Below, piece after piece: positions 57,502-63,843 of a stretch of DNA of 64,000 nt. Each line of letters opens with the position of its first letter. Within the stretch, counting starts at the first letter, position 1. The notes under the pieces were generated by a model, which saw nothing but the letters and a program-made list of their open reading frames with translations, was not told where the DNA came from and made no database searches. This stretch comes from Halanaerobium praevalens DSM 2228. Lineage in GTDB: Bacteria; Bacillota; Halanaerobiia; Halanaerobiales; Halanaerobiaceae. The stretch spans positions 1,984,001 through 2,048,000 of the forward strand of contig NC_017455.1 of assembly GCF_000165465.1 (NCBI RefSeq), read 5' to 3'. Made by a program: the position numbers and the translations under genes.

Positions 57502-58239
57502 TCATACTAAATTTTTACGTTTAATTGCAACCTTAACTAATTTAGAAAGCTTATCAACTAAATTAGTAATTTTATTCCTAATTTCTTTTATATTAGAATT
57601 TTCATTAGTATGACTAACTTGATTTCTATAATAAGTATAAATAGTTTCAAGATACTCTTTATTGAAACGTGTAGTCTTTTTTTCTTTTACATTTTTATTT
57701 TGATTTCTAATAAAATCATCCACATTACCCTGAGAACTTTTCTTTTTATCACTATTTATTAAATCAAATAAAATACTGTATAAAAATAAAAATCTCGCAA
57801 TTTCATTTTTGATTTGAAGAGCACTTCTGTATAATTCAAAATAAAATGATTCTTTTTCATAATTCTTCTCTAGACAGTTAAATATTTCATTCAACTCTTG
57901 ACTATCAGTTTTTTTACATAAAGTTCTTACTGACTTTATTTTACCGTATCCTTTACTTGATTTTTTAGTTATCTCACTTCTTATCATAGGAATTCCTATA
58001 TAATTTGCAGTATTAAAAGCGATTTTATTTAAAATATTCTCCATTGCCTTTTTAGTTAATTTTCTAGCAATTTCAGGTTCAACTATTTTTTCTTCAATAA
58101 AAAATCTTATCCAGGTATCTTTATTATCATTTTTTTGAAATATAATTATTTTTTTAATTCCATCATAAATTGATTCAATTTTAAATTTACTATCAAAATT
58201 TAAACTTCTTATTTCAACACTATAGTCGATGTAGCTCAT
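57502..58239 (-). CDS. HEPN-like protein (Apea-type)
   Basis: 245 residues from ATG 58239 (AAGGAG 9 bases upstream); 60 further bases of open frame lack a ribosome site. N-terminal beta-rich part (SYIDYSVEIRSLNFDSKF, IIIFQKNDNKDTWIRFFI). The C-terminal half is helical: FELYRSALQIKNEIARFLFLYSILFDLI, then IYTYYRNQVSHTNENSNI, which holds the R-x4-H motif of HEPN domains (RNQVSH). HEPN proteins are often RNases in toxin-antitoxin or defence systems. Whether this one cuts RNA is unknown. It neighbours an amber-split gene and an Rpn nuclease. Confidence 0.6.
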   Translation of the reverse strand: MSYIDYSVEIRSLNFDSKFKIESIYDGIKKIIIFQKNDNKDTWIRFFIEEKIVEPEIARKLTKKAMENILNKIAFNTANYIGIPMIRSEITKKSSKGYGKIKSVRTLCKKTDSQELNEIFNCLEKNYEKESFYFELYRSALQIKNEIARFLFLYSILFDLINSDKKKSSQGNVDDFIRNQNKNVKEKKTTRFNKEYLETIYTYYRNQVSHTNENSNIKEIRNKITNLVDKLSKLVKVAIKRKNLV

Positions 58240-58426
58240 TTTATATAACTCCTTTTTTATATTTAGTTGGTAAATAGTTAAATTAGTTATATTTTTCATC
58301 TAATTATAGTCGGTCTATCCGTAGGAATATAACATGTTATAAATTTTGATCTTAACTAACCTAAATGTTATCGATCAAATTATTTCAACTTAAAATCCTT
58401 AGTTTTTTAGTTTCATCTTAAGATAG

Positions 58427-59215: not shown

Positions 59216-59887
59216 TTATTTGCGAATATAAGCAGGAACATGAGAAATAGAGTGCTTTTTAATTACTTTATTTACTTCCTTTTTATCTAAAAATTCATCT
59301 ACTGCTTTAGTTGCACCAGCTACTTTGCCATAATCATCTAATACTATTAATCCATTTTTGACAACTTTATCAAATAAATTTTCTAAAACAAATTTTGTAG
59401 GTTGGTAAACATCTACATCAATATGAAGCAAAGATATTTTTAATTCAGGATTTTTTATTAAATATTCAGGGATAGTTTTTATAATATCACCTTTAACTAG
59501 TTCATAATTTCTAAAATTTTTGTGTTTTAAAATTTTATCTAATTCTTCTACTGAAATTCCATTTCCCGCATTATTTTCGAATTTTTCTATAAACTCAATA
59601 TCATTCTCACTTGCCTTATTGGGGCGAGGAAATTCACCGAAAATATCAAACCCAATAATTTTTCTAGAGTAATAATTTTCAAGCATTTCTCTAAAACTAG
59701 AAAATCTTATTAAAGATGCACCTTTAAAAACTCCGCATTCAACAATATTTCCAGGTAAATCTATAATAGATTTATAAAGTTCATAATGGGATATTAATTT
59801 TGCCAATCGTTCTACTTTACTGGTCAAATAAAAACCATTCTCATATTCATAAGATTTATCTAAATTAAAATCAAAAATTCTATTCAT
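59216..59887 (-). CDS. TylF/macrocin O-methyltransferase-like protein
   Basis: 223 residues, class I SAM-dependent fold of the TylF/MycF family. SAM motif LPGNIVECGVFKGASLIRF (about 41-59), metal/catalytic region LLHIDVDVYQPTKFVLENL with D-x-D, and NGLIVLDDYGKVAGATKAVDEF. TylF-type enzymes methylate sugar hydroxyls and need a divalent metal. Beside a sugar-nucleotide synthase gene and a flagellin glycosyltransferase, methylation of a flagellar glycan is likely. GGAGTG upstream of the ATG. Confidence 0.8.
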   Translation of the reverse strand: MNRIFDFNLDKSYEYENGFYLTSKVERLAKLISHYELYKSIIDLPGNIVECGVFKGASLIRFSSFREMLENYYSRKIIGFDIFGEFPRPNKASENDIEFIEKFENNAGNGISVEELDKILKHKNFRNYELVKGDIIKTIPEYLIKNPELKISLLHIDVDVYQPTKFVLENLFDKVVKNGLIVLDDYGKVAGATKAVDEFLDKKEVNKVIKKHSISHVPAYIRK

Positions 59888-60013: not shown

Positions 60014-61309
60014 TTAAAATGCTCCATGTCTATCTATAATATCATTTGTATTATGACCAACTAAAATATCAGAAATAATCTTATTTTCAGTTTTAATAAC
60101 TTTTAAAGCCTTTTTAATAATCAAATTCTCATACTTTTTCGGTAAAACAATTATGCCATCACTATCTGCAAATATTAAATCACCCGGACTAACTTCAACT
60201 CCCATGATATTGACTTTTTTATTAATACTTTCTGTAGTAGCTCTTTTTCTAACATCTTTTGAAATATTGCCGGTAGAAAAAACTGGGAAATCTAAATCTG
60301 TTACATCTTTTCTATCTCTAGTTTTCCCACCAATAATGGCACCAACAGCTCCACTTTTTATTGCTAAATTCGCATTCAGATTTCCAAAATATGCATATTC
60401 ACTTATTTCATTTTCCACTACAATAATATCGTTAGGAACTATGGTTTTATAAGATTCTAATGCTTCATAAATACCTCTAAAATCTTCACCCTTGTTCAAT
60501 TTTCTCAATTTCAAAGTTTTAGCTCTTCCCATAATTTTTTTATTTTTCATATTAGGTTTTAAACCACTTATGAAATTATCGAGATTTAAATCATCCATAA
60601 TATCAGATAACATTGCACTTGTTAAAATTTTAGATAAATTTCTAAATCTTTCTCTTTCTTCTTCTCGTTTCCCAGCCATTATATAACTTGCTAATTTAAA
60701 ATCTTCTGGATAATTAACATCTACTGCTTCAATAGACTCTGCTTCTAATAAATATGGATTACTTCCTATTCTTTTCTTTTTATTTAAAGCAACATCTTTA
60801 TTAACAATATAAAGTCCCATGGTTTCAATAATAGTATCATCCAAATCATTACTATTAGGAATATGCTCATTATTATATAAAGGGCCATTTTCATCCCATA
60901 AATACTGTTTTTCTTTATTAACTAAAACTATTGAATCATACCGTTCTTTGTTTTTTAATTTTTCTACCCCTTTACGAATAGTATCAATTTTGATAAATGG
61001 ACTAGTACATAAAATTTGTATATAAATATCTGCTTTCACTTTTTTTGCCTCATTAAACATTAACATATGACCGTCTGTACTATTATTTGCTAAAGATGGA
61101 TCTCGTCTTAAATATTTACAGTCTACCTCCGAAGCTAAATCAAAAACAGCTTCGGAATCTGAATCTAAATATACCTCATCAATAAAATCACATTTCATAA
61201 GTTTTTCTAATGTGTGCAGAAATAAAGGCTTTCCATCTAATAATTTAATGTTTTTTGATTTTATTCTTCTACTCTGACCTTTAGCAGGCAAAAAAGCTAC
61301 AACTCTCAT
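60014..61309 (-). CDS. CMP-sugar (NeuA-like) cytidylyltransferase fused to an RraA-like domain
   Basis: 431 residues, intact. Residues 1-225: nonulosonic-acid cytidylyltransferase, with the nucleotide loop FLPAKGQSRRIKSKNIKLLDGKPL (region 5-28), EVYLDSDSEAVFDLA and YIQILCTSPFI. Residues about 230-431: RraA/HMG-aldolase-like fold, with AIKSGAVGAIIGGKTRDRKDVTDLDFPVFSTG (about 327-358) and VSPGDLIFADSDGIIVLP, including the conserved Arg-Asp pair. CMP-activation of sialic-, legionaminic- or pseudaminic-like sugars is expected; the RraA-like half could be an aldolase or decarboxylase acting on the same 2-keto acid. RBS AGAGGG. Neighbours point to flagellin glycosylation. Confidence 0.82.
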   Translation of the reverse strand: MRVVAFLPAKGQSRRIKSKNIKLLDGKPLFLHTLEKLMKCDFIDEVYLDSDSEAVFDLASEVDCKYLRRDPSLANNSTDGHMLMFNEAKKVKADIYIQILCTSPFIKIDTIRKGVEKLKNKERYDSIVLVNKEKQYLWDENGPLYNNEHIPNSNDLDDTIIETMGLYIVNKDVALNKKKRIGSNPYLLEAESIEAVDVNYPEDFKLASYIMAGKREEERERFRNLSKILTSAMLSDIMDDLNLDNFISGLKPNMKNKKIMGRAKTLKLRKLNKGEDFRGIYEALESYKTIVPNDIIVVENEISEYAYFGNLNANLAIKSGAVGAIIGGKTRDRKDVTDLDFPVFSTGNISKDVRKRATTESINKKVNIMGVEVSPGDLIFADSDGIIVLPKKYENLIIKKALKVIKTENKIISDILVGHNTNDIIDRHGAF

Positions 61310-61340: not shown

Positions 61341-61922
61341 TTAATAACTCTTTTTTATTCTCCTATTAAATTCAACCATAGTTTCTACATGTTCAACTAT
61401 CTCATATTCCAAAATATCAGCAACTAAAACATAATCTTCTTTGTTATATGCCACCATTAAATCACTAAGAGGTTTATTCATATCATTTATCAAATTCTTA
61501 ATCTCTTCAGATAACTCTTTCTGATCTAAAAGAGAAGTGATTTTTATAATTACACCTGTATACCATTTCAAACCATCTATTATTAGTTTATATTTATTAT
61601 GGGCTTCTTTTTCTCTTCCATTTCTAAAAAGCGACGCAGTATTTTTTATACCACTATATAATTTAGGCAAATAATCTGAAGCCTCTTCAATAGTCTCTAT
61701 AATCAAAACCTCAGAAGTTTTTGTTACAAATTTGAGCTCCTTTATACTTGCCTTCTCATTAATATTCTCTTTTATATATTCTTCATTAACTGCAACATCA
61801 TTAATTAGAATTTTACTTAGAATTTCATCTTCTAAATTATTTTTTATTTTATTTAAGATATCAGGAACTTCTAAATCTTTGTATTTTTTAGTTACTTCCT
61901 CATTATTTAAATAAATTATCAT
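61341..61922 (-). CDS. Hypothetical protein paired with Maf glycosyltransferase
   Basis: 193 residues, ATG with AGGAGG 9 bases upstream. N-terminal beta-rich 70 residues (IIYLNNEEVTKKYKDLEVPD, LIEDEILSKIL...), then an all-helical part (SDYLPKLYSGIKNTASLF ... DMNKPLSDLMVAYNKEDYVLVADILEY, region 147-173). It overlaps the Maf stop by 20 bases. A C-terminal remnant of a second copy occurs at 59066-59215. The helical part looks like a four-helix bundle; a chaperone or adaptor for the filament glycosylation machinery is a guess. Confidence 0.65.
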   Translation of the reverse strand: MIIYLNNEEVTKKYKDLEVPDILNKIKNNLEDEILSKILINDVAVNEEYIKENINEKASIKELKFVTKTSEVLIIETIEEASDYLPKLYSGIKNTASLFRNGREKEAHNKYKLIIDGLKWYTGVIIKITSLLDQKELSEEIKNLINDMNKPLSDLMVAYNKEDYVLVADILEYEIVEHVETMVEFNRRIKKSY

Positions 61923-63843
61923 TATTTTCTTCCTCCTGATTATCTTTTTTTAAGTGTAAATTTTTAATTAAATTTATACATTTTTTTAATTCTTCTATAT
62001 ATTGAACTCGATAACTTCGGTAATATTTTATTTCTTCTTTTATTTTTTTAGTTTGATTCATATAGTATTTATTTTTAATTTCTTTATATTTCATAGACTC
62101 TACAATCAGTATGCGTTCAATACAATATTTAACATTTTCTAAAGACTTTAATTGATTCTCTAAACTCTTTAACTTATTTTGGAATTTAATTATCTCTCCC
62201 CTAGCTAATTCATTAGTATATTTAAGCTTTTTTTCCATATCACTTATTAAAGATAACTGCTTCGCAGACAAAACTATAGCCTGATTTAATTCTTGAAATA
62301 AATTTTTAATAGAATTCTCCAACTTGTTTTTAGGATAGTCATGTTTAACCGTTTCATATGTATTTTTTAATAATATTTTGGCATTTATATTAATATCTTC
62401 CTCACAATATTCTTTAATTGCCTTTTTCATAGTTTTAATTTCTGTATTCTTTATTTTTGCGCCACCTTCTGTAGCATCAATATATTTTCTGTCAGGATGT
62501 TTAGCAAAGTAATTATTAAAGAAACTTATCATTGTCATAAATGTTTTACTCGTCAAAACTTTCTCCCCTGTATAACTATCCACTGCAATCAAATTTTCAT
62601 TTGAAACTTTCTCATCCTCTTTATATGTTCCAGCAGCATGAGTTTTGCCATTAGCATATGCAAGATCTTGACCAGCTAAAATTATAGGATTTGCACCCAT
62701 TTTATAAGCTAAATCAACCATGCTGTGTGCAACTGTTCCCCCTGTTTTAATAGGTGTATATTCACCATTAATTTTTTCTACCCAACCACTAAAATTTCTT
62801 TTCATAGTAAAAAAAGATAATTTATCATTCCAGCGTCTTGGCGCCTTATAATAAGTACCTAACTCTAAAAATAAAATTATATCATTTAAATCTTTTACTT
62901 TTTTGAAATCAGAAAATTTATCTAAATGACCATCCATTGCTACTACTATATCTGGTTTTATATCATTTTTTATTAATGCTTCTAAAGCAGAATCTACACA
63001 TATTATTAAAGCTTTACCTTCAGCATTTTTAATATCATTGATATTTTTATCTAATGAAGGGCCAGCAGAAACACAAATTGCTGGTATATCTTTAAATTTT
63101 TCAAAAAAAGCATCAGCTTTAGGATTATTAAAAATAAAAAGAAGGTTAGCAATAATGTTATTCCTCCAATGTTTAGCTGATTTAATATTGGTAGCCAATT
63201 CGGTTTTCTTATAATTTATTCCTTCTTTAATTTCTTGATAAATATCTTTATATTCTTCACTAAATAATTTTACAGAAGGACTGTGTTCCAAAAAGTCCAA
63301 ATCCTTTTCAAGATTCAACTCATAATAAGCTATAATAGCATCAAATAATTCTTGTTTATTATCTAAAACAAAGATTATATTATCACTTTTTAATAATTTT
63401 CTTAAATCTATATACTTTAAGGCAATATAAAAAATAGAAAAGTAAGGTTCAATGATAAAAATTTTATCATATTTATTTTCAGCTGCTAATTTATTCAAAT
63501 GATATCCTAAACCAAATCCTAGGGCAAAAACCTGCTGTTTATTTTGAGTTTTAAACTCCTTAATCTGTCGTTCTGACTCCCTGATAGGATTATATGTGCT
63601 GTGAAAATATATATCATTATTCTTATATTTCACACGCATTGTGAGACCATCATTCTTAGCTTTTTCTAAATAAATAGTTAAATCATTTTCTTGATCAATA
63701 ATTTTTTTGATTATCTCTTTATCTTCTTCATCATTTATTTCAAGAAAATTATGTTCTTCATATTTTTTTATGCATTGATATAAATTTGGTTTTTTACTTT
63801 TAATTGCTCGCATATTTTTATTATAATTATCCAAAATAAACAC
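61903..63843 (-). CDS. Motility-associated (Maf) flagellin glycosyltransferase, DUF115
   Basis: 646 residues, GTG start. The central DUF115/MAF_flag10 domain (about 220-430): FKDIPAICVSAGPSLDKNI (about 248-266), LIICVDSALEALIKNDIKPDIVVAMDG, TVAHSMVDLAYKMGANPIILAGQDLAY. The N-terminal domain has QQVFALGFGLGYHLNKL. The C-terminal 150 residues are coiled coil. Maf proteins transfer nonulosonic sugars to Ser/Thr of flagellin. The gene lies between filament-type genes and the CMP-sugar synthase gene. Confidence 0.88.
   Translation of the reverse strand: MFILDNYNKNMRAIKSKKPNLYQCIKKYEEHNFLEINDEEDKEIIKKIIDQENDLTIYLEKAKNDGLTMRVKYKNNDIYFHSTYNPIRESERQIKEFKTQNKQQVFALGFGLGYHLNKLAAENKYDKIFIIEPYFSIFYIALKYIDLRKLLKSDNIIFVLDNKQELFDAIIAYYELNLEKDLDFLEHSPSVKLFSEEYKDIYQEIKEGINYKKTELATNIKSAKHWRNNIIANLLFIFNNPKADAFFEKFKDIPAICVSAGPSLDKNINDIKNAEGKALIICVDSALEALIKNDIKPDIVVAMDGHLDKFSDFKKVKDLNDIILFLELGTYYKAPRRWNDKLSFFTMKRNFSGWVEKINGEYTPIKTGGTVAHSMVDLAYKMGANPIILAGQDLAYANGKTHAAGTYKEDEKVSNENLIAVDSYTGEKVLTSKTFMTMISFFNNYFAKHPDRKYIDATEGGAKIKNTEIKTMKKAIKEYCEEDININAKILLKNTYETVKHDYPKNKLENSIKNLFQELNQAIVLSAKQLSLISDMEKKLKYTNELARGEIIKFQNKLKSLENQLKSLENVKYCIERILIVESMKYKEIKNKYYMNQTKKIKEEIKYYRSYRVQYIEELKKCINLIKNLHLKKDNQEEENNDNLFK

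Follow-up and report, generated by a model that had tools for sequence, protein, structure and literature searches.

We propose that a 431-residue protein encoded in Halanaerobium praevalens DSM 2228, in which a cytidylyltransferase is joined to an RraA domain, is a bifunctional enzyme of octulosonic acid (Kdo-type) metabolism, with a CMP-octulosonate synthetase and a metal-dependent RraA half that would act on the same 2-keto-3-deoxy acid. We regard this as probable, if short of secure, and infer in this way the protein's substrate, its CMP transfer, its metal catalysis and its product.

The fusion is encoded by a single uninterrupted ORF on the reverse strand (60014–61309) of the window, by which we mean the whole 64,000-nucleotide stretch of DNA analysed. 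The N-terminal half (residues 1–214; 60668–61309, reverse strand) matches the Pfam family CTP_transf_3 at residues 5–170 (76.4 bits, cut-off 22.6), and the C-terminal half (residues 218–431; 60017–60658, reverse strand) matches the RraA-like family at residues 234–388 (102.9 bits, cut-off 24.5), covering profile positions 4–152 of 152, that is, a complete domain. The original prediction of a genuine NeuA-like/RraA fusion is borne out by the intact frame, by both domain matches and by fused orthologues; an assembly or joining error or a frameshift is ruled out as its source, since the gene lies on a single 2.31-Mb contig and fused orthologues occur elsewhere. An AlphaFold2 model built on an alignment of 21 orthologues contains both domains (mean pLDDT 88.9, pTM 0.82). 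The best solved structure for the N-terminal half is the CMP-Kdn synthetase 9t4z (Z 26.3 over 213 residues). The VIA-align rows cover mainly residues 1–214, and among the matches listed those to the C-terminal half are RraAS2 (5x15, Z 24.2), PSPTO_3204 (3k4i, Z 23.5) and HMG/CHA aldolase (3noj, Z 21.5). By Pfam match and modelled fold, the N-terminal half can be assigned to the CTP_transf_3 family, and the complete domain and metal motif of the C-terminal half likewise place it, as judged from sequence, in the RraA/HMG-CHA aldolase fold family. None of the four equivalog models compared with the fusion assigns it a known function: it scores 66.7 bits with PseF (TIGR03584, cut-off 205.7), 20 bits with KdsB (TIGR00466, cut-off 155.2), 69 bits with the ligK HMG/CHA aldolase (TIGR02798, cut-off 304.5) and 27 bits with the RNase E regulator RraA (TIGR02998, cut-off 241).

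The surroundings agree with the flagellin glycosylation setting that had been predicted for this locus. On the strand of the fusion lie a Maf-type flagellin glycosyltransferase with Maf_flag10_N (PF20157) and MptE-like (PF01973) domains (61903–63843), a 193-residue protein between Maf and the fusion (61341–61922), and a TylF-like O-methyltransferase that may be a tailoring enzyme (59216–59887; PF05711, 79 bits). FliD-like, flagellin and FlgK-like ORFs, named from their sequences, follow just past the window's end, and the fusion is downstream of the FliD-like and flagellin genes. In this genome, the fusion probably helps to decorate the flagellum. The 193-residue protein has no match in Pfam, NCBIfam or PHROGs, and is 26% identical to a Gracilibacillus protein (L067:3212–3832); as it adjoins Maf in both organisms, it is a candidate Maf accessory protein. 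Downstream of the cassette, a MauJ-like gene (57502–58299) has an unusually low G+C content (21%).

Conservation patterns suggest that neither half is a relic. Two RraA motifs, D-X20-R-D and G-X20-R-D-X2-E/D, were reportedly described by Mazurkewich in 2014. Most homologues have one of the two motifs and are likely class II pyruvate aldolases (PMC5065237). In the fusion family, the metal motif region (N310, R331-D332 and D335 in the window protein; 60305–60382, reverse strand) was read from a 21-sequence alignment, in which Arg331-Asp332 is invariant. The acidic partner is at position 310 (Asp or Glu) in 18 sequences and at position 335 in the three that have Asn310, those of the window, Gracilibacillus and Tissierellia. 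The loss of metal residues among homologues, anticipated as an objection to the original prediction, is therefore not seen, the motif being kept in all 21. In both halves, every comparison that yields a usable estimate has dN well under dS (a near-identical Photobacterium pair is uninformative), by which measure purifying selection is acting on both. Together with the kept metal motif, this rules out a dead RraA domain. In the N-terminal half, Lys10, Ser13, Arg15, Lys19, Asn20, Gln98 and Asp197 are invariant, and every fusion member has Asn199 at the site where cytidylyltransferases usually carry their second metal-ligand Asp. Asn also occupies the equivalent position in two unfused plasmid relatives of the N-terminal half. 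These, from Enterobacter and E. coli plasmids (L088:5995–8905 and L089:5995–8905; 35–38% identity), lie in an operon that also encodes a NeuB-type synthase and a member of the inositol-monophosphatase family.

The fusion is rare yet widely scattered. We found at least 22 other homologues, 21 of them full-length and one ended by a contig edge, with 46–70% identity to the window protein. A scan of GTDB species genomes, which relied on exact peptide patterns so that more members surely exist, gave 21 loci aligned over the fusion by tblastn (20 full-length; L086 stops at the contig end), and one additional full-length member came from a Bacteroidota draw; two of the contigs bearing fusion loci are short. 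The hosts span at least seven phyla, and include Bacillota (Gracilibacillus, Paenibacillus, a Tissierellia MAG, Acetatifactor), Pseudomonadota (Photobacterium, Saezia, Caedibacter), Bacteroidota, Thermodesulfobacteriota, Campylobacterota, Elusimicrobiota and Gastranaerophilales. A fusion limited to this assembly, or to close relatives, is ruled out by this spread. In genome draws, the centre genome was alone in carrying it among 347 Bacillota and among 249 Campylobacterota, and two of 296 Bacteroidota had it. The distribution is patchy because none of the 58 other genomes of the same class (59 searched) has a full-length match, and this patchiness points to horizontal transfer, as far as presence and absence of sequences can tell. 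No fused relatives appeared in the viral, phage or plasmid searches. The family tree splits into two clades with strong support, the window protein grouping with those of Gracilibacillus and Tissierellia (support 100/99). Pairwise distances in the two halves are correlated (0.84), consistent with one ancestral fusion event. Co-transfer of Maf and the fusion between Halanaerobium and Gracilibacillus is unsupported: Maf and the 193-residue protein are 26–27% identical between the two, whereas the fusion proteins share 70%, and the fusion gene thus seems to be transferred independently of both.

A search for the same fusion together with its neighbours, as the original prediction had called for, brought up Kdo genes recurrently. 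On the basis of ORF clustering over 22 loci and family searches, with about 17 kb inspected, at least one kds gene was found in 13 of 21 fusion loci. An arabinose-5-phosphate isomerase of the KpsF/KdsD family is present in 11 (the copy tested, from Photobacterium, reaches 201.6, slightly under the cut-off of 203.7), KdsA (Kdo-8-phosphate synthase) in eight, with both tested representatives above the equivalog cut-off, and KdsC (Kdo-8-phosphatase) in five, with both of those tested above the subfamily cut-off. If each genome has a single KdsA, about 0.1 of 21 loci would be expected to include it by chance. The fusion family is genomically linked to kdsA, kdsC and kdsD, the window locus excepted, where no kds gene adjoins the fusion. 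The gene order in Gracilibacillus is two flagellins, the 193-residue homologue, Maf, kdsA, kdsD, kdsC and the fusion, and in Paenibacillus it is ABC transporter genes, the fusion, kdsD, kdsA, kdsC and a PF05159 capsule protein. In L069 and L075 the fusion is followed by capsule proteins of PF05159, a family that we take to include Kdo transferases; a polysialyltransferase-like protein adjoins it in L083, and Maf/MptE-like proteins lie beside it in several further loci. The second clade (six members) has no kds neighbours, yet kdsA and kdsB are present in the genomes of its members.

Two loci have unusual gene content. In an Acetatifactor MAG (L070:3543–7936), the fusion has as neighbours a second, unfused cytidylyltransferase, a ribulose-phosphate 3-epimerase plus CBS protein, a KdsC-like phosphatase and another KdsA-like gene, and a variant ulosonate pathway is possible there. 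In Solidesulfovibrio (L072:10714–12024), a 436-residue ORF combining a KdsB-like domain with a KdsC-like phosphatase shares an operon with the fusion.

The association with Kdo extends to whole genomes. All 23 fusion genomes have a Kdo-8-P synthase above the curated cut-off, as compared with 36 of 397 genomes in a Bacillota draw. Most of the 30 KdsA loci read from that draw have the order kdsB-kdsA-kdsD(-kdsC) beside lpxK, in lipid-A operons, the exception being the Paenibacillus locus that bears the fusion; a few others were truncated or unreadable by simple ORF calls, and L095 has kdsB and no visible lpx gene. KdsB was not found in the kdsA-bearing genomes of Gracilibacillus, the Tissierellia MAG, Acetatifactor and Paenibacillus, which makes the fusion the obvious Kdo-activating enzyme in these four Gram-positive-lineage genomes; it is also missing from one 1.7-Mb MAG, where incompleteness may be the explanation. 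This apparent replacement of KdsB, and the existence of dedicated capsule enzymes such as KpsU, could also be expected of a plain CMP-Kdo synthetase, analogous to KpsU or KdsB, in which RraA only aids assembly or regulation. We consider that unlikely: the RraA half is under strong purifying selection, and it keeps R331-D332 with an acidic partner throughout, even where the acid shifts site. Diderm members already make CMP-Kdo via KdsB, so their fusion either makes a different product or serves, as KpsU does, as a second, dedicated synthetase; their retention of KdsB suggests that the product differs from CMP-Kdo.

The original prediction had instead named a nonulosonic acid as the substrate, and here it finds no support. 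As a NeuA/PseF-type enzyme with RraA as a proof-reading or new-sugar aldolase, the protein would fit the observations that its N-terminal half is nearer in sequence to NeuA/PseF than to KdsB, that Maf enzymes usually transfer nonulosonates, and that the window's genome has a NeuB cluster elsewhere. However, the PseF cut-off is missed, NeuB is missing from 14 of 22 fusion genomes, it is kdsD, kdsA and kdsC that recur beside the fusion, and the NeuB cluster of the window's genome has its own NeuA, all of which make such an activity improbable. It had also been remarked that no NeuB-type synthase is visible, which holds for the window but not for the genome, where NeuB and NeuA are found 1.6 Mb away, in addition to a lipid-A operon distant from the fusion with kdsB, kdsA and kdsD together after lpxK. 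A distant cluster (L064:4372–11623) holds NeuB, a NeuC-like epimerase, NeuA and a sugar amidotransferase-like gene, and appears legionaminate-like by eye. Finally, the RraA half might replace a synthase and build the ulosonic acid from pyruvate and an aldose for activation by the N-terminal half, as its class II pyruvate aldolase fold and the lack of a synthase gene in the window would allow, but KdsA is in every fusion genome and in eight adjacent to the fusion, so that a synthase is already there and this role is very improbable.

For the bifunctional Kdo-type enzyme, the most likely substrate is Kdo itself or a compound closely derived from it, because the free acid comes from KdsA and a phosphatase and, where KdsB is lacking, the N-terminal half stands out as the candidate for adding CMP. 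In the preceding steps, KdsD and KdsA, with either KdsC or conceivably an inositol-monophosphatase-like enzyme as the phosphatase, would supply free Kdo; the RraA half, of the divalent-metal class II pyruvate-aldolase type, would work on the 2-keto-3-deoxy acid, and the N-terminal half would put CMP onto it. In the window, the adjacent Maf may then move the sugar from the CMP-sugar to flagellin, possibly with O-methylation by the TylF-like enzyme, while in other loci the CMP-sugar may serve capsule or polysialyl-type transferases. For the window's genome, the suggested connection to Kdo comes from orthology and the distant kds operon. If CMP-Kdo is present, the C. botulinum Maf adds Kdo to flagellin (PMC11339370), which makes a link between Maf and octulosonates chemically plausible.

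The linked chemistry on a 2-keto acid sugar that was first suggested for the two halves gains support from these results. An enzyme with a pyruvate-aldolase fold can cleave the C3-C4 bond of a 2-keto-3-deoxy acid and form it again. Our leading guess for the RraA step, although itself a rather unlikely one, is C4 epimerisation by retro-aldol/aldol reaction, favoured because the product would be lost if cleavage went to completion. Next come other enolate or anomer chemistry and a non-catalytic structural role, the two being equally unlikely; editing or lyase activity is less likely again, and synthesis from pyruvate decidedly improbable. More broadly, and tentatively, RraA could be a sugar-acid epimerase or new enolate enzyme that turns Kdo into a new octulosonic acid, activated as a new CMP-sugar for flagellin or capsule, Gram-positives included; we think this possible rather than probable.

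Kdo is an eight-carbon sugar acid regarded as a hallmark of Gram-negative outer membranes. If our proposal is true, octulosonate glycans would occur in Gram-positives (Gracilibacillus and Paenibacillus, without KdsB), and a patchily distributed bifunctional enzyme would join Kdo genes to flagellin and capsule transferases. The enzyme could also bring to light a new sugar activated with CMP, and a part in biosynthesis for the RraA fold, most of whose physiological substrates are, to our knowledge, unknown. In the open-licence literature subset, we found no papers on the fusion, on a link between octulosonates and RraA, or on kdsA/kdsD with flagellin in Gram-positives.

Among known systems, the CMP-Kdn synthetase PpNeuA (9t4z) and NeuA/PseF share with the fusion the fold of the N-terminal half, most motifs and the CTP-dependent activation of a 2-keto-3-deoxy acid, but the fusion is only about 28% identical, has Asn where the metal-ligand Asp is usual, lies in a Kdo gene context and carries the RraA domain. 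KdsB and KpsU resemble it in proposed substrate class and pathway position, whereas its TIGR00466 score (20 bits, cut-off 155), its separate branch and its added domain set it apart. HMG/CHA aldolase and the RraA-like class II pyruvate aldolases (3noj, 3k4i, 5x15) have the same fold and the Arg-Asp motif with its acidic partner; the fusion differs from these in its joined cytidylyltransferase, in matching neither the ligK nor the RNase E regulator equivalog, in the invariance of Asp352, Tyr307 and Asn312 across its family, and in its sugar context rather than one of aromatic catabolism. The Maf flagellin glycosylation islands of Clostridium and Geobacillus likewise place Maf beside flagellin genes with a CMP-ulosonate enzyme; their known native donors are nonulosonates, whereas the evidence for the fusion points to an octulosonate.
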